Source of the DNA: Galaxea fascicularis
Taxonomy: Eukaryota > Cnidaria > Anthozoa > Scleractinia > Euphylliidae
DNA length: 64,000 bases
Assembly (NCBI GenBank): GCA_948470475.1
Contig: OX419344.1
Span: forward strand, 23,892,225-23,956,224
Reading direction: 5' to 3'
Shown here: in pieces, positions 28,753 to 52,868 of the stretch
Layout of the letters: each line of letters begins with the position of its first letter
Numbering within the stretch: position 1 is the stretch's first letter
The notes under the pieces: generated by a model
What the model was told of the DNA's origin: nothing
What the model saw: the letters and a program-made list of their open reading frames with translations, nothing else
Databases searched by the model: none
Program-made: the position numbers and the translations under genes

Positions 28753-31700
28753 TTACTCCATCAAACAGCCATCAATGTGTTCGTTGATCTCGACATTCTT
28801 TGCCTCGCTTGCGAATTTCACTCCACAAACAGGGCAGAAAATTTCCTTCTTCTTCACGGCCACAGTCGATTTTTCGGTTCCTTTACCAAACGAACACAGT
28901 ATACTCGACTGCTTCTGTCGTTTGTTAGTCCTCAACAACGTATCAGAACTATTTCGTTTCAAAGAGTTCTTTCCTTTCAAGTTCTCCTTTGACAGGGGTT
29001 CGGAGAGATGGCGCGTAATGCCATTACACCTGACAGGACCTTCAGAGGTTCCCTTTTGCTGTGGGCGCCCATGGTTTTTCGTTTCCTTTGATTTAAAGTA
29101 AACTGATTTCACTTCTTTTACATTTGTGACTGGAACACGTTGTGTCTCGGTCGGGCCTTTACGGCTTGCTAATTCCTCCTTAATGTTATTCAAGCTGCAA
29201 TCTTTCTCAACGCAGTCATTTCCCGCACTCGTTTCTCCCTTATTTGCCAAGGTTGGTTCCTCAACTTCAAGCTTTGGTTCAACGGTTTTCGGTCTAAAGA
29301 AATTCTTAATTGTAACAGGAGGTGTAGTAGCTTTGGTTAACGTTCTGAAATTAATTTGTGTTTCTGGTTCCTCAAAAGCTTGACTAGCTTTTGCCGGCTG
29401 TTTCGAAGGTCCCGTTATACCCAAGGCACCATTTTGTTTTTCCTGTATCAAAGGGATAAACAAAGGCTAAAAATAATGAAATGAACAAAACCGAACTAGC
29501 AAAAAAAACATATTAAGAAACGAGCCTTTAAAAAAGCTAAGCAAAACCAGGAGAGTAAGGGCCTGTTTAGATGGAGGGAAGGTGCCCCGGCAAACCGAGC
29601 TACCTTAGGAGAGCCAACGTTTCATACGTTTGTCTAGAAAACTCGTTGAAGCGTTTACATGATAGATAGCATAACCCTGTCTACTTGCCCGCGGTTCCCT
29701 TGTAGGAGGGCTATCTTTTTGCCAAGTAAACGGTTCGTCCTGGGTTACCCGGCTAGCCGAAGTAAGAAGACCAGCTAAGGCAGCTTTTAACGTTAACTGC
29801 CTCTGGAGACTACGCTTAATATGTAGAGAGCAAAATAATAGCCATAGACACTGAAAAGCGGCCGCTAGTGTAACGAGTGATAATAAATTAAACTTGCCGC
29901 CAAAACGTTCCTTTTGTCCGCCATCTTGTTTGTTGTGCTTAGCGGCAGCTCAAAAGATAGCCTCCTGACTATTCCGCTTAGGTGAGTTGCATGTAAAGGC
30001 GGCCTATGTCTTAACCCCCCCCCCCCCCCCCCAAATCCACATTACCGTATACTTAACGAACAGAGTAAAAACGAATCCAGTTGCGCACTTACTAAAACGG
30101 TGTCGATTACTTTTTGCTCCTTCAGAAACAACGTCACTTCCGGTATGAGTTGCTCTGGGTAACGCAGACCAACCAGTCGCTGACCATTATCCAACTCAAC
30201 GCGGACAACTCTTAGGGAACGACTCTCCTTTCTGCAGCAGTCGAGACAATTGATGGGTTATTGTGGTTAACTTTGGATGAATCTTCCAAAGTTATTTAGT
30301 TCACTACTTCCAAAAATAAAAACACAAACAACACCGTGACAACATCGAAACTCTAAGGAATGGATGTACCGCATTTCCCAAAGTAACAGTCTATTATTTT
30401 TTGTTCGTGCCAAAAAGGGAGGCCTTCTAAGTGTCCTCAATTTGTCCAATTTTCAACGGTAATATCCTCTTTATGGGTCGTACTTCACTACGGTACCATC
30501 CCCCAGATTTACCAATCATGGACATAAAAATTATTTAAGGGTGGTCCGGGACAATTATTCCTGGGAGACAATTTTTTCAAATATTTTCACAAAATGAGGG
30601 GGCGATTAATAGAAGGACGGCTATTATTCGAGAAAATACGGTAACCGTTCAAGCCCCAACAGGGTAGACACAAAAGGGTAGCTTTGTTTATGAGTCAGTA
30701 GAGTTCAGGGTTGTAGCTAAGAAATTACTCAGCTGGTTTAGGTAGCAGTTGAGCCGGCTAAAAAATAGTTCGTCGCCATTACCGTGTGTTCACTGGCCAA
30801 AATCCAGCCGGCGATCGCCTCTTTCTCAGCCGGCGCTTAGCCACAACCCTGAAAGTTTGGTTTGGTATTGTTTCTGGGCTTTTGTTCCTTTTGTTTTAAG
30901 TCATCTGTGTCTTCTACACGAAGAAAATGCCAAAGTTTGGGAAGAGCCATATCTACTGACCCTAAGAATCTTCTGCTTATACGGACTCTGAAAGTTAACT
31001 TGACGGAGCACTGGAAAGATACAGGACAATCACGAGAATATTGGGAAGGATCATTTAAATAAAAAGGTTTTGGTGCCCCCAAGTCACCAAACGTGATGAC
31101 GAGAGTCAGGGTTGTCATTAAGGGCCGTGGGCCGGGAATTTTCCTCTCGTAGTTTGATGTACATCCCCTGCTACTTTGATATTAAAACCAGCATGTTGAC
31201 TTCACTACGGCAACTCGAATCCCCGGTTATTTTTTGTATATCCCCACCTACTTCAAAAATTAGTGACAGTCCCTGTATACACCTTTTTCCAAAATGGCTC
31301 CCATTTTCACATTCTTTTGTTTTTATTCAAATTAGCCCTTGATCCCTCGTTCGTAAGAGTAAAATTCAAAAGAATATTTTACCTTCAACGAGGCATCAAC
31401 GGCTGATTTGAATAAAAACAGAAGAATGGAAAAAGGTGTCCTGTATAAGGACTCTCATACGTTCATATTCATATTCTCAAAGAACAAAGAGGTTGTTTCA
31501 ACTGGTGTGATAACAAATATGACTACAGACATGAGAATGAGTGAGACAAAAACACTAACAACAACAACAACAACAACAACAACAGAGAAATATTAAGTAA
31601 TTATAGCCAAGAAAACTACTCCATAAACTTACGTGAGACCGAGTTTATCTGCGTTTTTAGCCATGGCTAGTTCCAAGGCAGACAGCAGGGGAATAATGCC

Positions 31701-34700
31701 ACCACACAACAGATGGATTTGAGTGATGCGACAACCAGCTACAAGAGAAAAAAAAGTAGACTATTCATTACACCACAGACCTTACAAACGACAAAGCAAA
31801 CTAGCGTTTTTTGTTGATTGAAAACCAACCACACCTCGCGCCCAAAACATGCAATCCCCCATATTCTAACGCACATACCACCACCACAGGCAGCTCAAAC
31901 AACAAGGTAAACTTGCGTCGACTGAATGAAAAGCCACCACAGTTACCCCTAAGACTTGTGTTTTCCAAAGCACATAAAGCCACCACAGGCCAACAACTGA
32001 AGCATTGAAGCAATTCTGTATAGGGCGGTTTTCAGCCTACCGTGTAAAGTAATTCTCGTTTGCTTCGGTTCTGCTCTACTTCAGTTGACCAAACGCGCGC
32101 TATTTTATCAACCAATGAGAAGCCAAATCAAAAACAAAATTTTCCCGCGCTTGGCGCACGCTACATCTAATTGCTTCGAATTCTAATTGGCTCATTGGGC
32201 TGTTTGAGTCTGTGCTGATTGGCTAGAGTTATTGCTTTATTTTGGGTTCCCGACATTCAATCAAAAACCGCTCTATCACAGCGAAATCCAGACAAACTTG
32301 CTTTGGATAAGGTGGTAGTGGAGAGCGCTCCTTTCTGGAGTTACTTGACTTACTATTACACGATGGCCCAGTCTTGCATCCTAAACCGTGAATGCACTGA
32401 TCTCTTGTTCTCTCATACTGTGCTTTCCAACCTGCTTCTGTTGAGGAAAAAAAACAAGAAACATTACGATAGGGCAGTTTTCAATTGCGTGCCGCGATTG
32501 GTTTTGGTTTTCATCCTGATTGGCAATTTCACAAGTTTATCGGTAACAGCAAACGCGCTTAACTTTGGGTTGGTTTCGGTTTGATGTCCGAGAACGTCCT
32601 AGAGATGAATTGATGGTTCACACTTTTCATAACTGGTTAATCAGCCAATGCTAGATCCTGATAGATATTTGGATGTTGGTTCCGTGGCCGGAGGACGAAC
32701 AAGGATTTCAACAAAAATCACACGAAACCATAATTCAAGGTCGATCAAAAATCTCCTAGTTTTGGTTTGAAACAAAGGTCAAATCACTTACTCTGGCGGC
32801 TCATCTGCAGGTACAACTAGAAGGCGGTTCGTTACTTCTTACCTGCATCTTCTAATGATATCTTGTTGTACTTCTGAAGCAGGTCAGTTTTTTCCTCCTC
32901 AAAAGGTGACCGACCCGTGTTTGGTCTGCAAGAAAATCAAACTTATTAGTTAACGTTAAATAAAGAACCGATTAAGGAGATTTATAAATCTGACGGAAGC
33001 ATAAATGTGTTGTTTAGCGTCTTTCTTGAGTCGCGCGCAAAGCAGACAAACAGGCCTATATGCATTTTTAAGCATCATTGAAAAACACACCCAATTTGAA
33101 CAAACATGGAAGAAATCATCTAATTTTCATGCACTACACACAAGCCGATTACACGACGAAATAGCTTAAATTCTACCTCTGGAAATTTAACCTGAAAATG
33201 TGCATAGGCCCTTTCTATTTTTCAGTTATTGATTGGACTTGGTTTGAATTACATGCTTCAACCGCGCTTCCAATTTCAGCTGTTTACCTTGTAATGTTAA
33301 AAAGATGAGTTGATGTCTCCTTCTGTATCGCCAAGAGATAAAGCCGTCTTCCTTTCTGTTCCCGTTTTGAACAATAAAACCCGTCAAACTTTTTAGAACC
33401 GTTCTCTTCAAACAGCTTCACCGCACAGTCCCAGTCTATACCGCGATCCACGCTAACAGTCACGTGTCTGAAACAGAAACAATCACGTGATAACAGGAAT
33501 GGAAGCTGTCCGTTGAAAAACGCACTTAAACCCTGGGTGCTTACTTTGTTTCCATGAGACCCCTTTGAAAGTCGGTAAAAATAGGTTGAGGGGTGCCCAC
33601 CATCGTGATGGAAGATCCAGATACGTCTGTCACGCCTTCGCTGTACCTGTGTAATGTCACACAATAGTAATGGTTAACAATTTCAGAAATTCTTAAACAC
33701 CGCTCAAACTGTCCTGCCTATGGGCACTGTCCCACTGGAGGAGAGACTACATGACGCCTATATTTTCAGCTATCAGGTAGTGATACGTGCAGATAAAAAC
33801 TCACCTTCCTTCGCGCTTTGCAGTTTCGATCGAGGCATTTAAACTCTCGCAGAAGTATGAGAATAGCTGCAAACAAACAAAGAAGAATAAACTGAAGTAA
33901 AGATAACGTGATGAAAAAGCTGTTTGTACCCAAAAGTGACAAGATCAAAAAATCGTTAGTACATAGATTGCACAGAAACCCTGATACAGCTGACTTCCTG
34001 ACCCAACAAATTAAACTTAATTAGGAGACCGGCTTTAAATAAATAAGAAAAGAATAAATAGAAAAGAGCCATATCTGTGACCACTTTTGAAATGTCTCCA
34101 TCCTTGGAATGCCTTCTCTGACAGTTAAATGGCTGGACGTATATGGAAGTGCTTTGCACCTACCAGATTTTGCCTCTCCACACTAAGCCCCAAAATGCGG
34201 TTCAAGAACCTTCCAACATCACTGGCTTCTTTATCTTTTACAGCAAAACTGGTGTCTGCAACTCCCATGGCAAGGAGACATTGCTGCATAAAAAAGTTAA
34301 CAGAATCTATTAAGTGAAGTGAGATTAATAGAGTAACAGGGTAACATCTAGTAATGAAGTAAAATCAGGAATAACTCACCCTGGCGATGGAATTGAATTC
34401 TGTGAATTCATATTTATCGGGAATCTGAGCCGCTGAGAGTACCTTTGATAAAGGGACCCCTGGACAAATGGATTGCTGATGATAAGAAAAAAAAATTAAA
34501 TGGACTTCTTTCACTAACATCTATTTATGAAACCAGTTAGCCAAATTGAACAAACAAGGAAACAAACGGTTCCAAGCCAGGAACTGTGAGAAACTTTTAA
34601 CTGAAGGAAGAATCTAAAGGAAAAAAGCTAAAGAATCGAAAGAAAAAGCTAAAGGAAGAATCTCTCAGTCTTTCAAACACTAGCTTCAAAGGTTCTATTT

Positions 34701-37700
34701 CAAAATAACATTAAGCGTCTAACGTCTTGAATATTTTGTCTATCAAATAAAATCGTAAAATAGGGATTAATCAACAGACGCAAGCGTAAGGATCGCATCA
34801 AGCATGGCCTCCCTTGACTGAGCTACCAATGATGATAACGAGCATTAGGGCCACAGTGTAAGGCATGATAGCACCAAAGGAGTGTAGTAGCAGTCAGTGG
34901 CTTTCACTTGAATGGTCGCACTATCGGATTTCGGCCACAGACTCAAAAGTTAAACACTCTCATTAAAAGTACCACAGCAATCGTCAACACTAGATAGCAG
35001 CTTTCGCTTGAATGCCTACATCCCCATAAATATTTACACATAAGCACATAAGTCATATCTCATGAGTCACAGTCTTACCAAAGTTATGGCTTGGTACATA
35101 TTTCTTAGAGCAGACCGGCCGTAAGGTGTGTCAAAATTGAACTGTGTCAAGTCTGCCCCAGTCGCCGCTCGTCTGTCGCCTTTTGTGAGTGCCCCTGCAT
35201 TAAAAAGTCAGCCAGCAAGGTTCATTGACCACATTCGGATGGCATATTCATTAAACAAGCAAATCACTCAGACCAGTACGAGTCGTGCTTAGATTTATTT
35301 GCTCCTTTGTACTGAATAAAAATCTGAAAATCTGTGAAACGTTCATCACAATAAACTGTAGAACGCTAACAATTTGTTCAGGAGGGTGGGGTGGGTGGGG
35401 GTGGGAGTGGTACGAGGATTGGAAGAGAAATTCGATAGCTGCTTGCTGTTCGCGAAAGGAGAGAGTTTGCACTGTGGATCTAAAGCATTCTCAACTGATA
35501 AGCTAAGCATTAATTGCTCTGACGAAGGGCTAACGCTAGAAACGCCAGCTTTTAGAATCCCTATACGGTGGTCAATTTACATTATCAACTCCGCTGATAA
35601 CACCAAATTTTTGTGTAAGTATTCATCAACTAAACTTAGGTGAGTTTAGAATTTTCAATTGAGTGTCGAAAGTTATTTTCGTTTGCTTTACTTCGCTCTG
35701 TGATTGGTTGACAAAAATCGCGCCAATTTCTCAGCCAATCAGAAGCAAAACTAAAACCAATCGCGAGTTGCACGCGCGAATTTTCTCGCGCTTGGCGCCG
35801 GCTGCGTGAAATAACTTCAATTTCTGATTGGCTCACTAAGTTGTCTTCGTGTCTTGTGATTGGTCAGAGTAATTGCTTTGGTTTTGGTCTTACGACACTC
35901 AATTGAAAACCACTCTTGTCTGAAAATACAATCACAACACTAAAGTGACCGAAATGTGGGTCAACCGAGTAAACACTGATTTAAAATGAAATGAACAGGA
36001 TAATCATATAACAATGTCGTGAATAATAGGTCCAAAATTGCACATAATTCGAACACATTACCCAGTGACTGGAGCCTGCGAGCAACAGCTGCTGCAAACC
36101 TTCTCTCGCCACCCAAGTTTGTTGTTACAAGTTTGTATATAGGTCCACTAAAAATACAAATGAAAAATGTTCAATAACACACATTTCTTACTAAAGAGAA
36201 CTTTATCAACTTTACTTTAACAGCCAGTCACTTGTATTCCATTCTTTACCACTTGCCATGCGTTAAGTAAGAGCAAAAAACAAACTGTCCCTTATCACTA
36301 TTATTTATTGGTTATAGGAGGTAACTTTCATAGTTACCTCCCACAACCACAAAAATGCTTCTTGCTGTCAAAAAACATTGACTCTTAAGCACGACTTAAT
36401 TTGCTCTCAAGCACGTTTAGATATCATAATACTAAGTATTACCGAAATGGTTTGAGGAAACGCACCTTGTTTGGTTTGAACGGTGTGACCGTCCCAGCTG
36501 TTGAACAGCTTTGTCAGCGCTCCATGGCAACTCGATTGTCACGTGAACACGACGACACTGATTGGCTGCTCGAAGGTCAGCATGTAATGAGATACCTATG
36601 TACGAGTTTACCACAATTTTAAGTAATGACGAATTCGATTTCTTTTCAAACAACGGTACTACCTAAGTTCGTCTAAATAACACTAAATACTGCAACACCA
36701 AGCAGTCCTAAGGATTTGAGTGGACAGGAATAGGCCTCTTTCCTCTGCATAGGCCTGTTTTGTGCTCCTCTTTTCTCCATTTAACGGAGTGCAGTGCAGA
36801 CCAGCGAAAAAGAAAATAAGAATGAACGGGAAACACTTCAAAGGAGAAGAGACAAAAGAGGCTTTTCTCTCCCATCCTGTCGTGACCCAAGCACTGTTGT
36901 TCTCCTTCAGTTTTTCTGCTTACAGTCGAACTCATATGAGGCGGCCACCTATCAAACAACCACCTCCTATAGGCGGCCAGTAATCAAAGCCCCTATGAGG
37001 GTAGTTATATTGTTTTTTACCTCTATTAAGCAGTCACTGTCCATTTCCCCAAGGGTGGCCGCTTAATAAGAGTTGAACTGTATTTTCAATTTTCTTTCCA
37101 TTTTTCCAGAGGAGCCCCTGTAGAGGGGATAGGGGATAGGGGATAGGGAATAGGAGACAGGGGATAGGGGATAGTGGATAGGGGACAGGGTACAAACCCA
37201 AAGAACAGAGCGATTTAAATTCGTATATTACTAACCAGTGCTGGCTGCATCTGATATTATAGCAACTTTTTTTGTTCCATTCATGAAGCTGTTCCTCTAA
37301 AACAGAGTAAATGCAAACATAAATACGTAAAATGAATGAAAGAAAGAACGATCATACGAAAGGACAAATGGATGGGTGGGTGGGTTGATGGAAGGAGGGA
37401 TGTAAGGAAGAATAGCGGATAGATGCAGGAATGAATGGTATTCATTCACGTGACCAGTGGCCATATTGGTTTAATGAAACAAATGAAAATATTTGCATAA
37501 AAATAGAGTTCAATTCTCAGAGGGTTAGCTTTGTACACCAATATGGCCGCCGTTCCTTTGTTTTGGTACACCAACATGGCCGCCGTGACGTCATGTGAAT
37601 ACGCTCCAATAAGGAGTTTTTGGATCAATTGTCAAAAGTTATCAGGTTGAATGTATAAAAATTATCCTTTTACCTGTTTATTCAGATCTGTAAGAGAAAT

Positions 37701-40700: not shown

Positions 40701-43700
40701 CTTTCTCAGAATCCTAGTAAAACAAGCTTAAAATAGTTGAGGAAAAAATCGCACAATCTGCATAATTTACCGCATAATAGTCCTTTCTTATCGCACAATC
40801 TACGCTGAAAATATCGCACAATTTCTGATTTTTCATCGCACCCTATCAGATGGCCTGATTATAATATACACATCACCACACAGTTTTGTAGTATAAATGA
40901 AATGTAGCTGTAAGGAACATAGAGAGGAGCAAAACAGGATGAACCACAGTGAAGTACAAAACATTGATCAAGTATTCCTTTGCAAAGGGAGAAATCAATA
41001 ACTAGGAAAATACCACATTTTCAAGAGGACAGATAAAACAAACCTCCCCAGTAGACTGAAGACCAATAACAACACAGAAACCATCTTGCAATGCTTGCTG
41101 AGCTTCCTTTACTATGGCAGGAACTTTCATACTCATACTGTAAGACAAAGTCAGTTAGATGAGGTTGGTGAGTTTAACTGAAAAGGAACTCCTTTCTATA
41201 ATCACAACTCTCAACTTTACTGACCATAATTGCTTGAAGAAGCGCTGATGACTTGACCAGAATACTGACCACACCCTTGGGGTAGCAGTGGTAGTTCGAC
41301 CGATGGCAAAATCCAGTGACTTCTTCAACTCGCTCCTGAGATCAAAGAGAACAGAGAAACCTGCATTAAAACAGGACTCTATCAATATACAAGCTAATTG
41401 GTAACATAAGCTATTACAGTCAGTGATTCTGAATGGACTGAATGTTTCATTATTTTATCAGTTATGTCCAAAGTTAATTTCCATGAAACATGCTCATCGG
41501 GCAGCAGAACGTGACATAAATAATAATTATCAGGGCTGTGCTCTAGCAGCGCCTGGTCACCCCTGGCGACTTACTTTTGCCATTGGGCGACCAGGAAATA
41601 TTAGTTTTTGCACCAAACTTATATTCTGGGCACCCTGGATTTCAAGGATTTAGAGGTTTGGGCGCCCAACTACTTTTCTTGGAGCACAGCCTTGATTATT
41701 ATCAAATAGTTGGACTTGATGAGGATGATGATGACAAAGACAACGACGATGATGATGATGATGATGATGCCAATGCAGATAATACTGACAACAACAACAT
41801 TGATGATGGTGACAATGATGTTGATGATCAATATAATCCATCCATTATCATACCTACCACACATGAACTGCAGTATCATAAACTTTTATCTGACTGGCTG
41901 TTAAAGGAGCTTCTACATTGACAAACTGGAGAAAATAAGAAGAAAAAAGCTTCAAGAACGAACACATATGGAGCCATGGAGCACAGAAAGACAAGAATGA
42001 TGTGAAAGATAAAAATCAAGTGATAAGTTTACAAGATCAGAAGGCTGATGTTTGAGACAAATGATCCAGGGGTTACATTAAAAGGCAATAACTGACCAGT
42101 TTGTCAGAATTTACCTTCACTGCCTCCAATAGATTTTCACTCAAATGATTAAAAGACTTGATTAGGTCACTGCCTACTTTGGTTAGCTTAGATGGCTATT
42201 TCAAAAATTATAGAAACTGCTGATGATCACTCAACTATTCAACTGTGACCAATTTCATCCACCTTGTACATTTTAAAGTTAAATGTCAATTACCTCGGCC
42301 TGCCTGAAGCTAAGACCTCTGGATACATACATTCCTGAGGCTTTCATCTCCATAGCTAACATTTCAGCAGCACCTGAAAACAAAACAAAACAGATGCAAA
42401 ATTAGCAAAAATGAAGTTCTTATTATCAGGGTTGTCACTAGGATTTTAAGTAGATAGATGAATAGGTTGAAGTAGCTGGCTACAGATTATATATGAGCAT
42501 GAAGCTCACAAAATTATGCAATTTCCAGCAAACTGAGGCAAAAGTAGCTGGCGCAAAGAGGTCTGACAGACAGTAGAAATCCACTGGCTACTGGCTACTA
42601 ATGATGATCCTGTCTTATACATGTTTACTTTTTTCCAAGAGGACACGGTTACGAATCCTGCAATATGATTGGTTCTTAGGGCAGTCCGGAATTTCCTATC
42701 TCTGCCCATGGTCACGGTAACGCTTTCGCTTAGTAAATCCATGGGAAAATCTTGATGTGACATTTTTTACATTGGCACGACAAAAGAGTAAGCTTATGTA
42801 GGTGCGTAGAAAGACTTTGCAAACTCAGTTCTCATTCATCTTCAGGCAAAAAGAGAAACAGAAAAAAATAAAGATGTTGTGGTTTAAATTTGATTTTGGT
42901 TTGAAATGTTTGAACCAGTTTAATTCTTATTTTCCTTTGTTGCAAATTCATCACCATAATCTGAAACAAAGGAAAATAAAAATACACCTGTTTCAAAACA
43001 TTTCAACCAGGAAAACATTTAAATCACAACATATACAAGACAACATTCAGTTCAAGTGGACCAAACCATAAAAAAAAGGGTTTTTTTATGGACCAGGAAT
43101 CAAGCAATTTGGCTGACAGTAAACATGTTTTTGCTTGCTCATTACAGGATCACCAAGGTAATTTTTTGTGATTATAGACATTAAATCCAACATTTTTGCT
43201 GGCTGGGGAAAAGTAATAGCCTTCTTGCCAAAAACCTTAATGAAACTCCTGCCAAAATGGCATGACCAGAGCTATTTCTGTGACTGAAGGCCTTGATGCA
43301 AAAACAATGTAGGTGACAATTTGGCCTTAAAATAGAAAAAAAAAATTAGGCCTGCAGACCAGTTATAATGTTGTAAATGTAGGTCTACAATAATAATATT
43401 TTGTGATCTGAAGACCTGTCAGTTCAGCCTTAATTGGCAAAAGGCATATGCTAATTCATCAAATTCTGGCCAAATCATAAAAATGGACCTAATTTTCCAA
43501 AGCCATAACCAGTGAGTAGGCCAAAGTCAAGTGGATCCAGAGAAACTTAACAGCCAATTTGTCACTTACACCACTTTTGCAGAGCTGTACACCTTACCAA
43601 GTCCTCTCTTGCTGATACTGGTGAGAAAGGATTCAAATGATTTAAAAGCTGTTCCATCTCCCCACAGACCAAGTCTCTCCATAAATGCCTAAATGTCAAA

Positions 43701-46700
43701 ACAAACACAGAACCTCTTTAAAAATGCTCTGATTAAAATCAAAACAGACTTTAACAAGGTTAGAGAGTACATAATAATAGTCTATTTGGTACAAAGCCAC
43801 TCAACAATCATTTTAGAGGAAAAAAGGTTCAGCTTATAATGACTTGGGAGTCACAATTATACATATGTAACCTGTGAGTTTGATCAACTTGCCCAATCTC
43901 TATTTATATGGTCTGTACGTTGCTTGGTAACATGGTTATGACGGTAGCATTCAAAATACAATCCCTGACTGGGTTATCAAGAGTAGGTTTTAGTGGTTTT
44001 TGAAATAAGCTTTGTATGTAGAAACAGGCATGTGAAACCAAAGTTCAAGTCTAAGTGGCTTGCTGGGCCAGAGCCTAATGCAGTTCCCAAAAAATGAAGA
44101 AAATGAATATTACTACTTTCACATCAATGGATAATACCAGCCAGATGCTGGTAATGGTGCAGAGAAAGAGGGCCTACCATATTTTTTACATCTGTTACTC
44201 CAGTTGCACTGCAGTACACAACACGAGCTTTGGGTAGCATCCTACAGGATAAGCAGATACAAAAAAGATGAGGTTTGACAGTTGAATAGTAACAAAAGAA
44301 ATGGTTGTGGCATGTGGTTGTAGGCAGAGTTGAAAAGGAGAGGACTACATGTTATAAAAGATAATTACTCCGTGTGTTGTCTTTAGTCCACAGTCATCTC
44401 AGTCAAACATTTATGTGGTTATTGTGGAGTCATTAAACTTGGTTAGCAATACTTTCAACTAGTTTAATATGTGTACCTCTGTATTGTTGTGACAGCAAGA
44501 GCAACTTTTGTACTGGTTTCCTCTTTGCCCTAAAGCATAGATACACACAAAATATTAGACTAAAAAAGTAGCTGTTTAGTGATTTCAGTCAGAAATGAAA
44601 AACAAATATTTCACTTGTGCTGACTGCTATACCAAAGGCAAATATCAAGAGAGCATTGATTACTTTAAATTTGGTTACTGATCCACCCCTAGAAGGGCTA
44701 TTGAGGGATAATAAAACAAACTGGACCAAAACAAAAAATTTAAATAGGATAATATACATTTAAACTCATTGCCAATAGATGAGCTTGGGGAAGGTGATAA
44801 GGGATAGGTGGAGCCGCGTGTAGGTATCCATGGCAATCCTGAGAGCGGCAACCACCTGGCACCGTCACATTGATAAATCAGTGGAGATACTTACCAACCC
44901 AAATACTTACTGAATAAGAAACCACCAAGGGGGCGGAAGGAGTGAGAACATAAAAGCACAGAGCTTGCCAAAGAGCAAAGCATAAAGGCCCTAACGACGA
45001 GCAAGAATGCAAAACATGGAAGCCCCTGCAAAAAATTCCCCAGATATGTTACCCTGACACACCTGGCCACCTCTAACAGCCAAAGAACACATTGGCTCCA
45101 GTTTAACTTAGCCTAAATTACATCCAGCAGGGGTTTCAATAATAGCCGGGTAGCAAGTAGTTCTACCTGGTTGAAGGAGGCTGACTACCTGCTTGGGGAG
45201 CATGCACCCTGACCCTCTAGGAAGGCAGGCCCTTTGGGCCTTCCGAAAACTTACCTGCCTGATATTGAAAACTACCCACTTTTTCCAAAAATCAATGAAA
45301 CCCCTGCATTCAGCCACATTTAACAGTGCACTTGCTGGATATTCACAAATATAACCAAGACTTGAGCCCAGTACCTTTCGCTTACAAGTCCAAAATCCTA
45401 AACCCTCAGCAATCAAGCTTCTACACAGGGACAGTTACATGGTACAAACCATCACTTACTGGTACAAAATGCTTTGCTTTGTGGCACTCATCAAATATGA
45501 GGCATCCATTAAACTGCTCCCCACCACACCAGTCTATAAGTTGCTGCAGTCTACTTTGCCGATTGGTACCTGATAAAATACATTGACCACACTCAACAAA
45601 CATGGACAGGGTTCGTACACTTTGTGTCCTAGAATTCCATGACTTTTCCAGAACTTTCCAAGACCCATTGTGATAATGTTAAATGTTACAAGAACAACAT
45701 AGAAATACATGTAGACAGGTTGTAATACAGTTTGTCAAGAGTCAGGACAAGAAAATTGGTTTGTTTGTGCAAAGATCTAATTTTCTAGGATTTCCAGACC
45801 TGGATTTTACATTTTGGAAATCCATGACTTTCCAGGATGTCAATGACCCTATGAACCATGATGGAGCCACTTTAGAACCGTAATGTTCCCTGTAGGACTA
45901 CGGTCAGTATTGATTGTCAGTTCTGTGACCAACTTTCACTTTTTTTTTCAAATACAACAATGTGTACTTGTGTTCATTTAAGTAAGTATAATGCTTATTA
46001 TTGGAATGGTTCCAATCTCTTAGAATGTCAAATTTTCTCATGTTATTTGCTACATCTGTTTTTGCTCTTCCTTTATTTTGTGGTAGTGGACACTGAATTT
46101 GATGCTCCTATAACACAAATACACATGTGCATGTACATGAAATTTTTACCTAAAAAAATGGACAGTACATTCATATCTCTTTCTTGAAACATAAACATCT
46201 ACATGGTTCTATGGACCCAGCAAGCAAAGTACATAAAAGTACTATCTGCTAACCTTTTTGAACTGAAGACACCAATGTTGCATAGGTACTAAACACAACA
46301 CCTTCTTTGAAATCAGCAGGCAGTCCAAACACTCTGTTTCACAGGAATATTAAGATATACAATAAATTGGCTGACAGTGTGGATTTAGACCTCAAAGGAG
46401 GTATGTGTACTAGATAACAAATATGGACTTCACTGCCAATAATTGGCAGAAGAATTTGTCAGAAGTACTTTTAACTGAAGAATTTGGCAGATTTTAATGC
46501 TTAGTCAGGGTTTTCATTAAGAACTGAAGTAGTAGGAGGATATTATAAAGTAACAGGACAATCTGGTCACTCAGACAAAAAATTACCTTCAAGGCTGCTA
46601 CATTGAAATTTAGGCGGAGAATTCCACACAGTAGCCAGAGAATTCTCCAATCTCCGATGCCTAATGAACACCCTGCTTAGTGAATCATTTTATTTTATTT

Positions 46701-48878
46701 TATTTAACTTCGCCAAGCTGGCAAGGACACCGCAACAGCGAGCACCAATTTCTGCAGGCCCGAGACACAGGTCAACACCAGGTGTGGTCACAGCCAGGGT
46801 TCGTTACGTCCCTAGTGGTTCTTTAACGTCCCACAGAATTAATTGTGGAGAGTTGTAAGATGGAACCTCCGGTTTATCGTCCTTATCCGTGAAGACTAGA
46901 AACTCTAACCATTTGCAGATGTCATTGCAAAGGAAGCACTTTCTCCTCAGTTATTTAAAGACCCTGAGTGTTGGTCCAGCTGGGGTTGGAACCCACGACC
47001 TCCACGATGTTAGTCCGGAACTCTACCAACTGAGCTAACCGGTCGGAGGTAAAATTATTGTTATTATCATTATTCACTAAGTATTAAAATCAGCCAAATT
47101 CTTCAGTTGATCATTACTGAAGAACTACGGGCATTACAACACACAACATCCTAAACGTCTGCAGTATGCTTCAACATAAAGAAGAAGTACAAAAGACAGG
47201 GATAAAGAAAAAATGCCACTTATTAACTGTATCCTTAAACACAACAATGACATCCTGTGTTTTTCTTCAAGTAAAGTTCTAAGATTTTACAGCTTATTGT
47301 ACACTGTGCTCTAAGGAATGATTGCAACTCCTTCTAGAAGAAGGATTATTTATTTTAAGGTGTTAGTCAGTTGCTGCAGGTCTAGTGGAAAGACTTAAAT
47401 GTAAGGAACTACATGTACATGTATAGCAGTTACAAGAAACTTACTTATGGAGAGGAAGGGGTCAGAACATTAAAATCGGATTAATTTTCATGAAATGATT
47501 ACCTTGTCTCTTTATCAAGCTGTTGACAACCATCAATTACTTTAACATAGCAGCCAATGTCATGAAGATCTCTTAAAAATAAAACAAAACAAACACTGTG
47601 TTAGATAAATGAAACAACATCTCAGTGTGATCATTAGTTTAACTTTCACCTTAGTGATAGTGGGGTGGGGACAGTAGAGAATAGGGGTGAAATAGTAGAA
47701 TGAGGGGTGTGGAGGGGGGGAAGAGAAGTTAACAATTTCTGAAAAACAAAAACAGGGTCATCCAATACTCTTAGGTTACTCCCCTGCACCTCTCACCATT
47801 ACAACATATTTAAGCAAAGGGAATGACTTAACAGTGTTTACAAACCTTTGTGCGTCCAATCTGAGGTCAGCTGAAATACTGAACCACACATGTCTGCACC
47901 TTCCACGAGCAAAATTATCCAATACAATTCCAGAAATCTGAAACAAAAAGACCATGTAGAGTATGCCAAATTCATTCTTTTCATAATAAAACATTTATAT
48001 CCCTTGGAAGGAAAGATGATTGCAAACAAAATCATGTCACAAAACTTTCTTTTAAGTCTAAAGCAACTAACTGCAAATGCATGTTTAAATCAAACTCAAT
48101 ATAACAGATGTTCTTTAAAGTGAAGATCATATTAACCTGTCTCCCTTTGCCAACACCAGCACCATCTCCAATGAAGAACCCTGCCCTCTGTCCACTTGCA
48201 AGCATCACCTGATGTCTCTGACACTGAAAATTAATACATACAACCAAAAGTATGCCAAGGTTACTTTGACTGTTATAAAGACAAAGATCAAGATAAGTGC
48301 TTCATATAAGAAATGCTTTGTATCTACTTACAGCATACAAGACTCCTTCCAGCTGTAAATCACTCAGTTTACCTGAAACAAGGTGTAGTCAGTTAAAGCA
48401 TTTTTTTCACAAAATTAACACTCTAATATTATTAGCACTTGTCCATTCACTATTTACAGATCTGCTGATTTAAAAATTCTGAAAACACTGCCACATTTAC
48501 AACCTGCCTTGTGAATTAAAAATTGTGTAGTAAGGTACAAGAAAAGTAGACCAAAGCATTAACAGCAACCAACACAAAATGTGATTGAAAACCACATCCA
48601 GTATAGCATTTTAAATTTGTCAACAATTAGGTCCTACCACACCTGATTCCACTAATTCCTTTGGAACGGCCTCAAACAGTCCATATTTAGCTGTAGGTAG
48701 TAGTTGTGCCTGGTTGAAAAATTATTTAACAAATTAGACCCATAGCCTGGACAGAAAGGGCAATAATAAAGTTAGCAAATGCAAGTTGAAGAAATATTTA
48801 TTTGGGAATAAAACAAAAGAAAGTGTCATGTTCGATTGCTACTCAAGGACTATTACTAATAGTCCTCTAGTAGCATAA

Positions 48879-48912
<34 letters not shown>

Positions 48913-51576
48913 GTTGAGTGATACTAAATCAAGATATTCAAACTTTGCAATACAATGGATGTTCTATGCAACACAACACTTCTTTACACCCAATCTGCAC
49001 TGCACTATATTTTAACCATAATGCTACAAAAGCAAGCACATTATTGTCTACTCCTTATTTTAAGTGGTAGCATATTGAACTTACTGCTAAGCATCCTGCT
49101 TCCACTATATCTCCCGGATGGGGTTGAATACTCTTGTGGTTTAATGAGCAGCACACGTAAGTGGAGAAGACATCCTCACTGTGAACCAAATCAAACATCA
49201 AAATAAAGCTCATGCCTTCATGTCCATCATAAGGAAAAGTCTGTCCAGTGGTTAGAAGACAGTGAGGTGGAAACATGAGAGAAAAGAGGGTTGACTTGGA
49301 GAGACATCTTAATTCGTTTCCTCCTATATATTCAGTCACATATTTATGCTTAAATGCTGACTGAAAAACACTGCAGCCATCCAGGTGGAAAGCAAGAGCT
49401 TAAGGTTAGTTTCCCATGAGTGAAATCAGTGTTACTTGTACATGTAGACAGAAAATGGGCTTCAAGGAAAACTTTATCATTGGAAGCATAACTGAAATGC
49501 TGTTTCCATTTGCAATAATATTGATATTGACATACTCATGACCAAGGAAGATACACTGTACTTTAACTCTTTCTTGTCAAAGTTTTCTTGAGCCATTTCT
49601 GAAATTTTCTGAGTGTCAGCGATCGAGACGATCTGGCGATTCCTTATTTGGCGTTACCTTGGTGATTTTCGCTGATCTTGAGCACTGAAGGCTCTCTTGT
49701 TTTTGTCACGCTGGTCACGCTAGCTGTTGCTTGTTTTCAAGCGAGCACTCGGCGTGAAATTTGGTAAGTATGCGACTTATAAGTGTTTTTTCGAGTCATT
49801 TTCCACTTCAGAAGCCCCTAGCCTGGCATCATCAAGCTGGTTTGGGGGTAGAGGCAATCCTCTGAAAGAAACCAGAGGTGAAAAACAATTTCACAGCGAT
49901 TTAGCCGCTACGAGTGTGTCGCCGAGTCATGACGGTTGAAGAGTGAGGTTGTCTTTCTGGCCTTTCTGAGGATGGATTCCAGGACCTAGCGTGGCAGTTT
50001 TGGCTTGTTTTGACTTCTAAATAATGCAATCAGTACAATATTTCGCCAGCAGGACTGGGTGGCTCAACACTTATAAAAAACCTATGAAACAGAAATTGGC
50101 GGACTTCCATGTCGCCGTTATCAAGGAATTACCCAGAATTCATTTCGCTCATGACGACGAACCTTTCGGATGAGTGGGGATAGCTCTTCTTCAACAGCTT
50201 TTCCTCGGCGTGCTAAACAAGTGAGCAGAAAAATGTGGCAAAGAATTAAAGTGCTGGAGCTGAACTTTACTGCAAATGTCGTTTTTGGGCACCAGGAGGA
50301 GTTTTTGTATCGGAAACTTAAAGACAAAAATCGTATATTTTGGTGTTGTCTGAGGGCGTTCACTTCGGACAGTTTGGGTTTTGTAGGGAACCAAACAGTC
50401 ATGTTCAATGGAAATCGGCCATGGTAGCGCATTTATGGGGTGTTAAAATTCAAAGCACTAACCATTTCAAAGTATCAATGCCTCATTTCAACTTTCCAAT
50501 TCTTAAAGAGTAACCATGCATCTGTAGAATGTACTGGTCCATATGGACAAGTACATTAAACGGCCTGACAAGAAAGGGTTAAACTTAAGTACTTCCACAA
50601 TCTCCTTCATGGCAGAGTCAAAGGTAATACTGTGGATAAACCACCTCAAACAGGCATGGTTCTAAATTAAAGATAGAGCTCTTTCATGATACTCTATCAC
50701 AGCTATTTCTGTAGTTTGTCAATGGTGGCTATTTACTACAAGAAGTATTTAGAGAAACTCTGAAGGTTTCCATGCTACTGGTTTGCCAGCTTGAGGATCC
50801 ATCACCCACTTCAAGTATTTGAAGAATGAAGAAGCATATTATTCTATATCATATTATTGGCTTGGCAGCTCAAGAGTTGCAAAGAACAAGGAAAGTGTTC
50901 GATGGCTAACAATCTATTTCTGGGAAGTCAAGAGGGTGTGTGAAACAGCTGAAACATGAAACAATGAAGTTGTCAGGGGCTTTCCTTGCTCATCACAGCT
51001 GAATGTCAAGCTACCAAGCCAGTACAATAATTCTGGCAACAGGCCTGGAACAGTGTCACTGTATTCAGGGATTCAATGTTATCGCCTGAGATTTCACTTG
51101 ACAATCCCCTTAAACACCATCTCCTCTATGTTTTGTAACCTTAAAAGGAATATAATATGATCGAAATACTTTTCAAAAATGAAGGTATCTTCTGAAGAAG
51201 GGACTAAGGCCCATTTGAATGATGCATACATGTAAGCTTATGCAAATAACTTGTACATGTAAGCTTAAATTGTTAAGCTTACATGTACAAGTTATTTGCA
51301 TAGAAACGCGCAATAGCGTGCTTTCTCGCTCACTCTACACAAAAGTCTCACGGGAAAAGTAACAGCATGAGTCGCTCCGTCCTTTTGAATACACTGTTTC
51401 TTACAGAAGCGACAGAATTAAGGTTCACCCATCTCCTGTACTAATTACCTTCGGCTCTCTGCCACAACCCCGTGCGCCATTTTGTTGAGTTCTTCATGCT
51501 CCTCGGTCGGGTTTTCAACGCGATTTATTGAGACGCGGCGTTGCAGTACGGGAGATTCTGGACTAGAAAGAGCCAT
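28753..51576 (-). CDS. SBNO-like: Strawberry notch (SBNO) family helicase with C-terminal UBZ4 zinc finger
   Basis: Read as 32 exons whose phases all match, giving 1,221 residues. Exons, 5' to 3': 51576-51449, 49178-49085, 48709-48643, 48372-48332, 48223-48137, 47937-47846, 47571-47503, 46333-46254, 45569-45460, 44529-44477, 44241-44178, 43688-43598, 42373-42294, 41925-41858, 41335-41225, 41137-41044, 39098-38979, 38881-38796, 38242-38083, 37296-37236, 36595-36466, 36147-36062, 35194-35079, 34475-34380, 34283-34164, 33866-33805, 33646-33545, 33467-33288, 32925-32843, 31738-31633, 30231-30093, 29442-28753. Helicase motifs: Walker A G-D-G-A-G-V-G-K (129-136), D-E-C-H (246-249), S-A-T-G (285-288), motif VI Q-x-x-G-R-x-H-R-x-N-Q (617-627). 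SBNO-type sequence continues to about residue 985. The last exon (993-1221) is disordered, has T-I-K-N-F-F (1036-1041) resembling a PCNA box, and ends with C1195, C1198, H1214, C1218 in a UBZ4 pattern. The N-terminus is shorter than in vertebrate SBNO1/2. Nuclear ATP-dependent remodelling is inferred. Confidence 0.93.
29561..30008. mobile_element. Possible MITE in SBNO intron 31
   Basis: The left end GGGCCTGTTTAGATGGAGGG resembles the inverse of the right end GCATGTAAAGGCGGCC. The interior has CCCGGCTAGCCGAAGTAAGA-like segments and is non-coding. A pure C run follows at about 30017-30032. Confidence 0.4.
30705..30852. mobile_element. MITE with CAGGGTTGTAGCTAAG ends (SBNO intron 30)
   Basis: Ends TCAGGGTTGTAGCTAAG and CTTAGCCACAACCCTGA are near-exact inverted repeats. 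The interior carries repeated AGCCGGC blocks. About 148 bp. Confidence 0.8.
32023..32276. mobile_element. CCAAT-rich MITE (family A), copy 2 (SBNO intron 29)
   Basis: Ends AGGGCGGTTTTCAGC and ATTCAATCAAAAACCGCTCT are inverted. The interior has at least four CCAAT/ATTGG boxes and AATTTTCCCGCGCTTGGCGC, an E2F-like site. It is inverted relative to copy 1. Confidence 0.75.
32468..32590. mobile_element. Family A MITE fragment (SBNO intron 29)
   Basis: Starts AGGGCAGTTTTCAATTG like the family A terminus, then GCGATTGGTTTTGGTTTTCA and a second ATTGG. The right part is lost or diverged. Confidence 0.55.
35648..35917. mobile_element. CCAAT-rich MITE (family A), copy 3 (SBNO intron 22)
   Basis: The best-preserved copy. 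Ends AATTTTCAATTGAGTGTCG and CGACACTCAATTGAAAACC. Five CCAAT/ATTGG boxes and a TTTTCTCGCGCTTGGCGCC block lie between them. Confidence 0.88.
36922..37081. mobile_element. MITE with ACAGTCGAACTC ends (SBNO intron 20)
   Basis: Left ACAGTCGAACTCATATGAGG, right CTTAATAAGAGTTGAACTGT, imperfect inverted ends. The interior has several GGCGGCC(A/G) blocks. About 160 bp. Confidence 0.7.
37117..37192. repeat. (GGGGATA)n minisatellite
   Basis: About ten copies of a 7-base GGGGATA unit with single-base variants (GGGAATA, GAGACAG, GTGGATA), in SBNO intron 20. Confidence 0.95.
37439..37602. mobile_element. MITE with GTATTCA-CACGTGAC ends (SBNO intron 19)
   Basis: Left GTATTCATTCACGTGACCAG then GGCCATATTGG; right CCAACATGGCCGCC then GTGACGTCATGTGAATAC. 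The ends are inverted with small gaps. An internal ACCAATATGGCCGCCG repeat is present. Confidence 0.7.
37705..37907. mobile_element. MITE family B, copy 2 (SBNO intron 19)
   Basis: Same order of segments as 20184-20386: CCTTAAACCCTAAGATCAAA at the left, AATTCTCGTGACCACTCTG in the centre and GAGGGTTTAAAGG at the right. Confidence 0.85.
39386..40857. mobile_element. 1.47-kb DNA transposon with captured-exon-like segment (SBNO intron 16)
   Basis: Ends CAGGCCATCTGATA and TATCAGATGGCCTG are exact inverted repeats. ATTATA flanks both sides (39380-39385 and 40858-40863). Subterminal regions repeat TCGCACAAT-type units at both ends. In the middle, on the minus strand (about 39985-39765), is an open frame of about 75 codons ending at a consensus donor (gtgagt). 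It looks like a captured host exon: non-repetitive, with a R-C-D-L-V-F-P-V-V run and a [12 protein letters not shown] segment. No transposase recognised. Confidence 0.8.
41532..41693. mobile_element. MITE family C, copy 2 (SBNO intron 14)
   Basis: Ends CAGGGCTGTGCTCTAG and TTGGAGCACAGCCTTG with the same interior as 20844-21005. Confidence 0.88.
41716..41780. repeat. (GAT)n microsatellite
   Basis: Interrupted GAT/GAC triplet repeats in SBNO intron 14. They generate spurious Asp-, Met- and Ile-rich frames. Confidence 0.9.
42428..42605. repeat. Dispersed repeat D, copy 2 (SBNO intron 12)
   Basis: Starts CAGGGTTGTCACTAGGATTT and shares ATGAGCATGAAGCTCACAAA with 22056-22212. The right part has repeated CTGGCTAC units. 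Confidence 0.75.
45127..45307. mobile_element. MITE with GCAGGGGTTTCAAT ends (SBNO intron 9)
   Basis: GCAGGGGTTTCAATAAT at the left and ATCAATGAAACCCCTGC at the right are inverted with one or two mismatches. About 181 bp, non-coding. Confidence 0.8.
45607..45858. mobile_element. Possible MITE (SBNO intron 8)
   Basis: Left CAGGGTTCGTACACTTTG and right CAATGACCCTATGAACC are partly inverted. Internal CCATGACTTTCCAG blocks appear twice (with CCATGACTTTTCCAG). Confidence 0.5.
46505..46675. mobile_element. MITE with CAGGGTTTTCATTAAG ends (SBNO intron 7)
   Basis: Left CAGGGTTTTCATTAAG and right CTAATGAACACCCTG are inverted, resembling the CAGGGTT-ended group at 30705 and 42428. Confidence 0.65.
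46688..47046 (-). mobile_element. tRNA-derived SINE, copy 3 (SBNO intron 7)
   Basis: The tRNA-like head on the minus strand (GGTTAGCTCAGTTGGTAGAG, with the B box slightly mutated) is followed by the shared core and a TAAAA-repeat tail. Same strand as the host gene. Confidence 0.92.
49567..50578. mobile_element. piggyBac-like non-autonomous element, about 1 kb (SBNO intron 1)
   Basis: Termini CTCTTTCTTGTCA and TGACAAGAAAGGG are inverted with one mismatch, and each is flanked by TTAA (49563-49566 and 50579-50582). TTAA duplication and CCCTTT-type ends are hallmarks of piggyBac elements. Short open frames inside (49727-49939, 50170-50427) show no transposase motif. Part of the interior resembles 63560-63720. 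Confidence 0.75.
51240..51301. repeat. Perfect 28-bp inverted repeat (hairpin)
   Basis: Arms 51240-51267 and 51274-51301 are exact inverses with a six-base loop (AATTGT). They contain ATGCAAAT, an octamer-like motif, on both arms. SBNO intron 1. Confidence 0.9.
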
Positions 51577-51763
51577 AGATACGTTTTGGTCAGAGAAATG
51601 TCGTTAAAAAAGCTCTCATCCTCCAAATATTTTCGATGTTTGAGACGGAAATTGTTCCCGCATTTTTGGTTGTAACCGCTAAGAGCGCGGGCGCACTGAC
51701 CTAACCATAATGCACTGGGGAGAGGCACTGGGGAAAAAATGAAATGGTAATGACAGTGGATAT

Positions 51764-51865
51764 TATTATTACTATTATTATTATTATTATTGTTATTATC
51801 ATTATTATTATTATTTGTTGTTGTTGTTGTTGTTAGTAGTAGTAGTAGTAGTAGTGGTAGTTGTA
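51764..51865. repeat. Compound ATT / GTT / AGT microsatellite
   Basis: Successive triplet runs just upstream of the SBNO start. Open frames here are low-complexity artefacts. Confidence 0.95.
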
Positions 51866-52868
51866 GATTTCTGCACAGCTCGAGTGGTACATAAATTCTG
51901 TTTTACTCGGAAGTTTCCGAAACTGTCGAAATTATCGACCGGATCCCCGCGTCCCCATGTCCCCGAACATGTGTCCCTACGTCCCGGCCCCGCAGTCCCC
52001 GATCCACTATTAGTTAGGCTCACTTTGGGAACAGACAATGTTGCCAAATGCCGTTAGAGGCGCGATCCAGTAAAAACTTTCGGTTAGACTTCCCGAAATT
52101 TTCCTCTATCGAACATGTCGAACTGAACGGCATTTTCAATTTCAATTCAGAAATTCCTATTTCCTTGGGTATTTCATTAGGTCAGACGTCAAATGGAACG
52201 GCAAATTTCCGATCAGGCTGGTCCAGCAATAAAAGGGGGCCTCCTCCAAAGGTATACATTAGTTTCCGAAAAATTTCCAGTTGGACCGAGCCGTTAAATG
52301 CCGAAAATTTTGGTTGAATGGGATGCGCCCCTAAGTGTAAATGCTAGTTTCACAGTTTCGCTTATATTTCGAAGGCAAATGTGCTGTTAGAACAAAGGAA
52401 TCTAAAGATAGAAAATTCAAGGTCCATGACAGCACTTCCGTTGACAAAAACAACGAACCAACTCTATCATTCAGCTGACAGGAAACGGACTGACAACGGA
52501 GGAAGGTTGGAGAACCGCAAAAATGAGACCTACATGGAACCAAAGATTTGAGATTCCTTGTTTCATTCACAAGATATTTTAATGTAAAATCTCAAGAAAG
52601 GTACAAGGTTTCGGTTACATTTTTTTTTAGCTAACAAAGGCCATACCACCCAAATCCTGAAATTCCGCTAAAAGGCTTTTTCTGAAAAGTTGACGTTCTT
52701 CAACCATGACATTCTGTCATCATGATGTGTCCAAACATTCAGGCTCTCAAAAGAAACGACTACAGTGGTGCAGTGATCTCTTGTCACAGCCTGCCTATAT
52801 GACCAAGCCCGGTCTTTGTGCCGACTGATCGAGTGAAGCTATAAATGACTTGATATCACAAAAGAACC
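51866..52868. other. Intergenic, no gene seen
   Basis: Region between the divergent starts at 51576 (-) and 52869 (+). Pyrimidine-rich CCCCG..CCCTACGTCCCGG repeats occur at 51950-52005. No coding exon recognised. It could hold a shared promoter. Confidence 0.4.

Follow-up and report, generated by a model that had tools for sequence, protein, structure and literature searches.

Proteins of the strawberry notch (SBNO) family, among them SBNO1, SBNO2, Drosophila Sno and Arabidopsis FORGETTER1, share a motor composed of AAA_34, Helicase_C_4 and SBNO domains. Strawberry-notch-like ATPases have been assigned to the SWI2/SNF2 clade (PMC5512222), FORGETTER1 has a PHD finger and works in transcription memory (PMC5040591), and SBNO1 has been tied to neuronal genome safety through Yeats4 expression (PMC12289961). 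Here we describe a gene in 64,000 nucleotides of DNA from the coral Galaxea fascicularis (contig OX419344.1, positions 23,892,225 to 23,956,224; this whole stretch is called the window) whose predicted product carries the same motor, followed by a C-terminal tail with motifs resembling the PCNA-interacting protein (PIP) box and a terminal zinc finger resembling the UBZ4 type. The core of this protein groups with similarly tailed proteins from animals, algae and stramenopiles, and not with SBNO1 or FORGETTER1.

Several proteins outside the SBNO family invite comparison. ZRANB3 is a SNF2-class motor, SPRTN has a UBZ-type finger with or without a PIP box, and Srs2 and PARI are UvrD-type helicases. 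Like the predicted coral protein, ZRANB3 is a translocase, and its PIP box, AlkB homologue 2 PCNA-interacting motif (APIM) and ubiquitin-binding zinc finger read ubiquitinated PCNA (PMC6116012); it also contains an HNH nuclease domain (PMC5481773). It differs in belonging to another motor family, and in having APIM and an NZF finger where the coral protein has UBZ4. RAD18, SLX4, WRNIP1 and polymerases eta and kappa share with the coral protein a UBZ-type finger, often together with PIP boxes, whereas their catalytic parts are unrelated to the SBNO motor, and the finger loop of the coral protein's family is 4 residues longer than those of RAD18 and WRNIP1. UBZ and PIP-type binding occur together in polymerases eta and kappa, SNM1A and FAN1 (PMC6116012), and SLX4 reads ubiquitinated PCNA via PIP boxes and UBZ4 (PMC10987609). 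The helicase Srs2 has a non-canonical PIP box and a SUMO-interacting motif (SIM) near its C-terminus (PMC6116012), an order like that in oomycete relatives of the coral protein, which itself has UBZ4 and not a SIM.

The gene lies on the minus strand (51576-28753, a span of 22.8 kb in the window) and was modelled by fitting homologue P0001 with tblastn and searching for splice junctions. The resulting 33 exons (Table 1) all have GT donors and AG acceptors and encode 1249 residues with zero internal stops. P0001, from a relative, is 92% identical to the window protein over the core columns of the tree described below and, in a tblastn-based alignment, is co-linear with the window gene across 33 of 33 exons, tail included; its 1251 codons lie on a contig of 3860 bases, so that it must be intronless. 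The tail is encoded by exon 33, an open frame of 690 bp, and the first-pass annotation, made from the letters of the window alone, had joined this exon in phase to the preceding SBNO exons. That join is borne out by phase-0 splice sites, with a strong donor at exon 32 (TTA/GTAAGT, the slash marking the exon boundary) and a good acceptor at exon 33 (CCTTTGATACAG/GA), and by the co-linearity of P0001 across the junction. The window is known from genomic DNA alone, which leaves some room for a last exon that is part of another gene and wrongly joined; we consider this highly improbable, given the strong in-phase splice sites, the intronless co-linear sequence of the relative and the recurrence of the same tail in many other predicted proteins. 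The sole methionine of the tail-holding frame is moreover its penultimate residue, so that the exon cannot be an ATG-started single-exon gene, and the missing ATG and the relative's sequence together rule out a separate gene for the tail.

The Pfam domains of the core were scanned on P0001, as a close homologue, and mapped to the window model by alignment. AAA_34 (E = 4e-123), Helicase_C_4 (8.5e-107) and SBNO (2.5e-23) occur in the order of the SBNO family, and the Walker A, DECH, SATG and QLGRSHR motor motifs are intact in the window model. By these domains the window protein is a member of the SBNO family, as had been proposed. An AlphaFold2 model of a full-length sponge relative, P0058 (mean predicted local distance difference test, pLDDT, of 84), has as its nearest solved folds mostly CSB, ISWI, Chd1, RapA and further motors of the SWI2/SNF2 class; FANCM ranks 36th, and identities are 9-14% in the best 50 rows. 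Because of this fold likeness and the published placement of strawberry-notch-like ATPases, the core is read as a putative SWI2/SNF2-like translocase on duplex DNA; the strand-separating helicase Brr2, at rank 14 of the same fold matches, speaks against that reading.

In a maximum likelihood tree of 38 chosen core rows and 903 columns (quick search, unrooted and without an outgroup), 34 tailed rows stand opposite three vertebrate SBNO1 proteins and Brassica FORGETTER1 with a support of 100 in the Shimodaira-Hasegawa-like approximate likelihood ratio test (SH-aLRT), the only support measure used; the canonical side thus comprises four rows, without SBNO2, insect or other invertebrate canonical SBNO, the Brassica row is 42% filled, and there is one long branch, Monosiga. 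The tailed rows come from animals, choanoflagellates, green algae, stramenopiles and others, and the window row sits among them. Two constrained groupings, both named after the tree was known, were rejected by the approximately unbiased (AU) test: one in which the tailed proteins of animals are a duplicate of SBNO1 confined to animals (p-AU 0.0008), and one in which those of green algae are kin of Brassica FORGETTER1 (p-AU 8e-5). Because the core tree splits the tailed rows from SBNO1 and FORGETTER1, the tail appears to be a trait of an old paralogue; judged from this tree, the tailed SBNO proteins are an old paralogous lineage in animals, algae and stramenopiles. The annotation had proposed an SBNO lineage fused to a UBZ4 finger, and a distinct lineage is what the core tree contains, but the tail is not a new fusion.

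Vertebrate SBNO1 ends differently. The best 120 of 3097 matches in an SBNO1 search were vertebrate SBNO1 or unnamed rows like it, and all 97 records that could be scored (the other 23 were missed by the end pattern) end 38-39 residues past the core, without finger or PIP-like motif. The annotation's statement that vertebrate SBNO1 and SBNO2 lack such a tail is thereby upheld for SBNO1, the one of the two that the comparison covered. The organisms named among the best 120 of 3288 homologues, where many rows are nameless, include no vertebrate, arthropod, nematode or tunicate, and the sole named land plant among them is Brassica, which groups as canonical. The tailed lineage is thus likely absent from vertebrates; for fast-evolving groups the listing gives no such indication. 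With its own group set aside, an oomycete protein has its best listed matches among the tailed proteins of animals (894 bits), and a vertebrate row in the same list scores 740 bits. No description of a tailed SBNO lineage was found in the available parts of the SBNO and FORGETTER literature, with limited coverage of subscription journals and no bioRxiv preprints, and the lineage is apparently undescribed so far.

Tails were compared across 145 candidate rows (the window, P0001-P0120 and P0241-P0264), of which 124 have a tail of at least 80 residues after a core end set by alignment; removing redundancy left 116 tails, and 76 rows remain at core identity below 70%. In one of the rows without such a tail, P0003 from Porites lobata, the annotated protein ends before the end of the SBNO core, so that the tail is missing despite a close core, possibly through an incomplete gene model.

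The window protein ends in a finger of the form C-x2-C-x15-H-x3-C, whose INEHIDGCL signature fits the pattern [IL]-N-x-H-x-D-x-C-[LI]. The finger pattern occurs in 72 of the 116 non-redundant tails, and C, C, N, H, D and C are invariant in 38 aligned fingers, chosen from 68 non-redundant ones. Searched with a profile of these 38, the PDB returned RAD18 (4.3e-8) and WRNIP1 (4.8e-7) as single fingers, polymerase kappa at 3e-7 for two fingers taken together (0.011 and 0.046 singly) and FAAP20 at 2.9e-5. In all, 164 sequences matched with an E-value of 10 or less, one of them the designed finger chain Aart, as a sum of weak repeats without a single passing stretch. In Pfam, 30 of the 38 family fingers match UBZ_FAAP20 at E up to 1 (best 1.8e-8), while RNF220 is likewise matched by 30 (best 0.0011) and the autophagy-receptor zinc finger by 25 (best 2.3e-6). 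The predicted finger has a beta-beta-alpha order with pLDDT 93-96, and Foldseek matches it best to FAAP20 and TAX1BP1, whose UBZ domains superpose at 0.7-0.8 A over 26-28 columns, with the RAD18 UBZ at 1.8 A over 30 columns and all E-values above 0.2.

Four results weigh against this assignment: Pfam, searched with the 229 residues of the window tail, gave no UBZ match up to E = 10; the window finger alone reached UBZ_FAAP20 at 0.0071, below the curated cut-off; a single-sequence PDB search of the tail found RAD18 at E = 0.17 only; and the family profile also matches ordinary C2H2 fingers (ZBTB20 at 1.8e-5, ZNF524 at 2e-5) at about the level of FAAP20. The match to UBZ4 therefore reaches significance with the family profile and not with the single window sequence. 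The HMM search that the annotation had proposed for the tail accordingly came out two ways, without a UBZ from Pfam but with solved UBZ4 domains from the family profile, and with the agreeing fold prediction its assignment of the finger to the UBZ4 type is well supported. The Asp of the HxDxC signature has a role in ubiquitin binding by UBZ fingers, and D37 of WRNIP1 is presumably this residue. Cells with the D37A form of WRNIP1 are handled as UBZ mutants (PMC10942783). By its sequence, the coral finger would be expected to bind ubiquitin.

Upstream of the finger, the tail holds a conserved block with the family pattern E-P-x-[TS]-P-[VI]-x-x-K-x3-[KR]-A-x3-P-x-T-[ILM]-x-x-[FY]-F (block 1), which ends in a PIP-like motif (motif 1, PVTIKNFF in the window, with I4, F7 and F8). 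Anchored on motif 1, 119 tails have E at -17 in 108, P at -13 in 90, V or I at -12 in 118, A at -4 in 89 and T at position 3 in 105. The motif patterns were written after inspection of these tails; x-x-x-[ILMV]-x-x-[FY]-[FY] occurs in 114 of the 116 non-redundant tails (shuffled mean 4.1), the stricter x-x-[TSN]-[ILMV]-x-x-[FY]-[FY] in 113 (shuffled mean 0.9, maximum 6 in 300 shuffles), and a strict Q box in 6 (shuffled mean 0.2). Motif 1 is also found in 73 of the 76 rows kept at core identity below 70%. The [TSN] form is missing from P0254, P0258 and P0080, the last of which holds PKKVTDFF.

A second motif, QSSILCSF in the window (motif 2, with I4, S7 and F8), follows KRQK. Its pattern, Q-x-[ST]-[ILMV]-x-x-x-[FY] downstream of motif 1, occurs in 27 of the 124 tails (shuffled mean 0.47, maximum 3), mostly without an aromatic at position 7. 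Two of these tails are from Aphanomyces, and the other 25 are animal or animal-like. In a conservation profile of 25 chosen animal-type tails in ten-residue blocks, motif 1 scores 0.78, motif 2 0.54 and 0.43, and the finger 0.45, 0.36 and 0.68; raised values are also seen in the block directly behind the core (0.53) and in two blocks near the motifs (0.38 and 0.39), and most others are lower, often below 0.25.

How far these motifs are PIP boxes is a matter of degree. Against such a reading, the window's motif 1 has P in place of Q at position 1, as do 84 of the 113 motif-bearing tails, and Monosiga (P0254) and P0258 lack motif 1 even in its loosest form. The window's motif 2 has the Q. Octopus (QFNMHSFF) and P0100 (QRTLASFF) have canonical Q boxes at the site of motif 1, and in Bugula (QSSLNTFF) and Aphanomyces (QHSVSAFF and QRPVSAYF) such boxes lie closer to the C-terminus. 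PIP boxes may lack Q1 or the aromatics and still bind PCNA, at times differently (PMC6116012), and PCNA binding has been reported for a rice remodeler of SNF2 type whose PIP box is non-canonical (PMC8974069). PIP-like motifs stand at both places that the annotation had picked out and recur beyond shuffled expectation. Motif 1, with P where Q is usual, can at most count as a non-canonical PIP box, and position 7 of the window's motif 2 is not aromatic; binding of PCNA by either would be a prediction from their patterns.

FF is also part of the REV1-interacting FF motif pattern. This reading of motif 1 was set aside because P stands second after FF in 54 of the 119 tails, the window's included. 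A weak Pfam match of the tail to GCM (E 0.007, below the cut-off) was taken as chance.

The same block may instead serve the protein's own core. In the P0058 model, residues 1011-1020, at the start of block 1, have a mean pLDDT of 97 and are ordered like the core, with 88 over residues 1021-1030, the last of which opens motif 1 (1030-1037); because of this high pLDDT just before the motif, the start of block 1 may belong to the core fold, and its N-terminal half may be a structural strap, which counts against the PCNA reading of the motif. The wider alternative, that block 1 including motif 1 is mainly such a strap on its own SBNO core and that docking falls to the finger, perhaps with motif 2, would also suit the near-constant E at -17 (108 of 119 tails) and the F8 of motif 1, counted invariant in an 80-protein alignment as core residues are. 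However, pLDDT drops to 71 over most of motif 1 and below 50 directly after it, none of the 97 scored records of vertebrate SBNO1 has the block, and motif 1 matches the PIP pattern at positions 4, 7 and 8, with Q1 in P0037 and P0100, so that we regard this alternative as possible and on the doubtful side. Because a strap is compatible with the other readings of the tail, our confidences in these alternatives overlap.

The end of the tail changes across the family. Of 124 tails, 78 end in UBZ4, 18 in UBA (15 by a UBA-type Pfam entry and 3 by eye) and 28 in neither, a remainder that includes P0015, whose record ends inside a finger-like stretch, and P0120, whose end is unlike that of its kin. 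The named UBA-ended tails are from green algae such as Trebouxia, Coccomyxa and Symbiochloris; the prasinophyte Micromonas has a UBZ4 end. SIM patterns, which are short and two of which, among four, were fixed after the sequences were inspected (a caution against the SUMO reading), occur over whole tails in 16 of the 28 with neither end (shuffled mean 1.4, maximum 6; 13 within the last 60 residues), in 4 of the 18 UBA tails (mean 0.5, maximum 3) and in 8 of the 78 UBZ4 tails (mean 5.5, maximum 14). The SUMO-interacting-type ends are IDLVSDDD-like in oomycetes and VISIDD-like in brown algae. All seven of a set of oomycete proteins (P0241-P0246 and P0249) have a SIM-like end, and six of the seven show, by eye, a second aliphatic-x-x-[FY]-F motif between motif 1 and that end, in an Srs2-like order.

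By analogy, a PIP-like block with a ubiquitin- or SUMO-type module is the pairing seen in known modified-PCNA readers (PMC6116012, PMC10987609). We lean, by a narrow measure, towards an SBNO-lineage translocase recruited to modified PCNA in damage tolerance. The motor would be an ancient, SWI2/SNF2-like, ATP-driven DNA translocase, distinct from SBNO1 and FORGETTER1, whose flexible C-terminal tail would read modified chromatin or clamp proteins. The tail would do so with block 1 and the PIP-like motif at its end, joined in many animals by a second such motif, and with a terminal ubiquitin-binding-type module (UBZ4 or UBA) that in some groups gives way to a SUMO-interacting-type motif. Weak PIP-like motifs and the ubiquitin finger would jointly bring the motor to ubiquitinated PCNA at stalled forks or gaps. 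Moving along duplex DNA there, the motor would remodel forks or clear nucleosomes or other proteins; this role at forks, which the annotation had also suggested, is what we infer.

UBZ4 fingers also read other ubiquitinated proteins, and this tells against PCNA as the target; the UBZ4 of SLX4 works with ubiquitinated FANCI/D2 or K63 chains (PMC10987609). The coral finger could likewise read break histones, FANCD2/I or K63 chains, with the PIP-like motifs binding another partner or acting weakly and the motor working in break or crosslink repair or in chromatin, and the rarity of Q at motif-1 position 1 and the predominance of nucleosome remodelers and CSB among the nearest folds are in keeping with this. 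We nevertheless hold such a target to be unlikely, considering that [ILMV]-x-x-[FY]-[FY] recurs in 114 of 116 tails, frequently with K (65 of 119) and P (54 of 119) after it, that a few relatives have canonical Q boxes, and that the aromatic motif is repeatedly paired with a ubiquitin- or SUMO-type module.

Three further features of the region were noted. An 18-G run on the minus strand at 30015-30032, in the last intron, is a possible polymorphic or assembly-sensitive site. Low-complexity repeats at about 41690-41840 (in an intron) and 51740-51880 (upstream of the gene) show long stretches of D, H, S or N, T when translated. A short way downstream of the SBNO gene, and likewise on the minus strand, there is an open frame with a calcium homeostasis modulator (CALHM) domain (26401-27525; Pfam PF14798, E 1.8e-25).

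Table 1. Features of the tailed SBNO-family gene, in positions of the window
Feature	Position	Strand	Basis
Whole coding region, tailed SBNO-family gene	28753..51576	-	Spliced model fitted to P0001
AAA_34, first motor domain, residues ~62-370, exons 2-14	41872..49123	-	Pfam on P0001, mapped
Helicase_C_4, second motor lobe, residues ~513-796, exons 19-27	33625..38241	-	Pfam on P0001, mapped
SBNO alpha/beta domain, residues ~833-942, exons 28-31	31728..33439	-	Pfam PF25373 on P0001, mapped
Conserved block 1	29287..29373	-	Column counts over 119 tails
Motif 1, PIP-like, without Q at position 1, residues 1062-1069	29296..29319	-	Motif counts in tails
Motif 2, Q-type PIP-like, S at position 7, residues 1198-1205	28888..28911	-	27/124 tails
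C-terminal C2HC finger, UBZ4 type (well supported), residues 1223-1246	28765..28836	-	Family profile, fold prediction, Pfam
Exon 1, start codon at 51576	51576-51449	-	88% identity to P0001 start
Exon 2	49178-49085	-	
Exon 3	48709-48643	-	
Exon 4	48372-48332	-	
Exon 5	48223-48137	-	
Exon 6	47937-47846	-	
Exon 7	47571-47503	-	
Exon 8	46333-46254	-	
Exon 9	45569-45460	-	
Exon 10	44529-44477	-	
Exon 11	44241-44178	-	
Exon 12	43688-43598	-	
Exon 13	42373-42294	-	
Exon 14	41925-41858	-	
Exon 15	41335-41225	-	
Exon 16	41137-41044	-	
Exon 17	39098-38979	-	
Exon 18	38881-38796	-	
Exon 19	38242-38083	-	
Exon 20	37296-37236	-	
Exon 21	36595-36466	-	
Exon 22	36147-36062	-	
Exon 23	35194-35079	-	
Exon 24	34475-34380	-	
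Exon 25	34283-34164	-	
Exon 26	33866-33805	-	
Exon 27	33646-33545	-	
Exon 28	33467-33288	-	
Exon 29	32925-32843	-	
Exon 30	32437-32354	-	
Exon 31	31738-31633	-	
Exon 32, end of conserved SBNO core	30231-30093	-	P0001 alignment; donor TTA/GTAAGT
Exon 33, tail exon, residues 1021-1249	29442-28753	-	P0001 alignment crosses exon 32/33 junction

These findings correct the naming of the family, in that many database entries are called 'FORGETTER 1-like', yet Brassica FORGETTER1 groups with SBNO1 across the tree. On a broader view, to which we give an even chance, an SBNO lineage of early eukaryotes would be a dedicated reader of modified PCNA that kept its PIP-like block while its end switched between UBZ4, UBA and SIM, a fork- or gap-remodelling motor that corals, molluscs, echinoderms, sponges, algae and oomycetes retained and that vertebrates and land plants apparently lost. 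If so, the tails would form a natural series in which one reader swaps ubiquitin-type for SUMO-type recognition, and the damage-tolerance toolkits of model organisms would be ones without such a motor. Vertebrate-based lists of replication-stress motors would not include the tailed SBNO protein, which, if it acts at ubiquitinated or SUMOylated PCNA, would represent a new motor family in damage tolerance.

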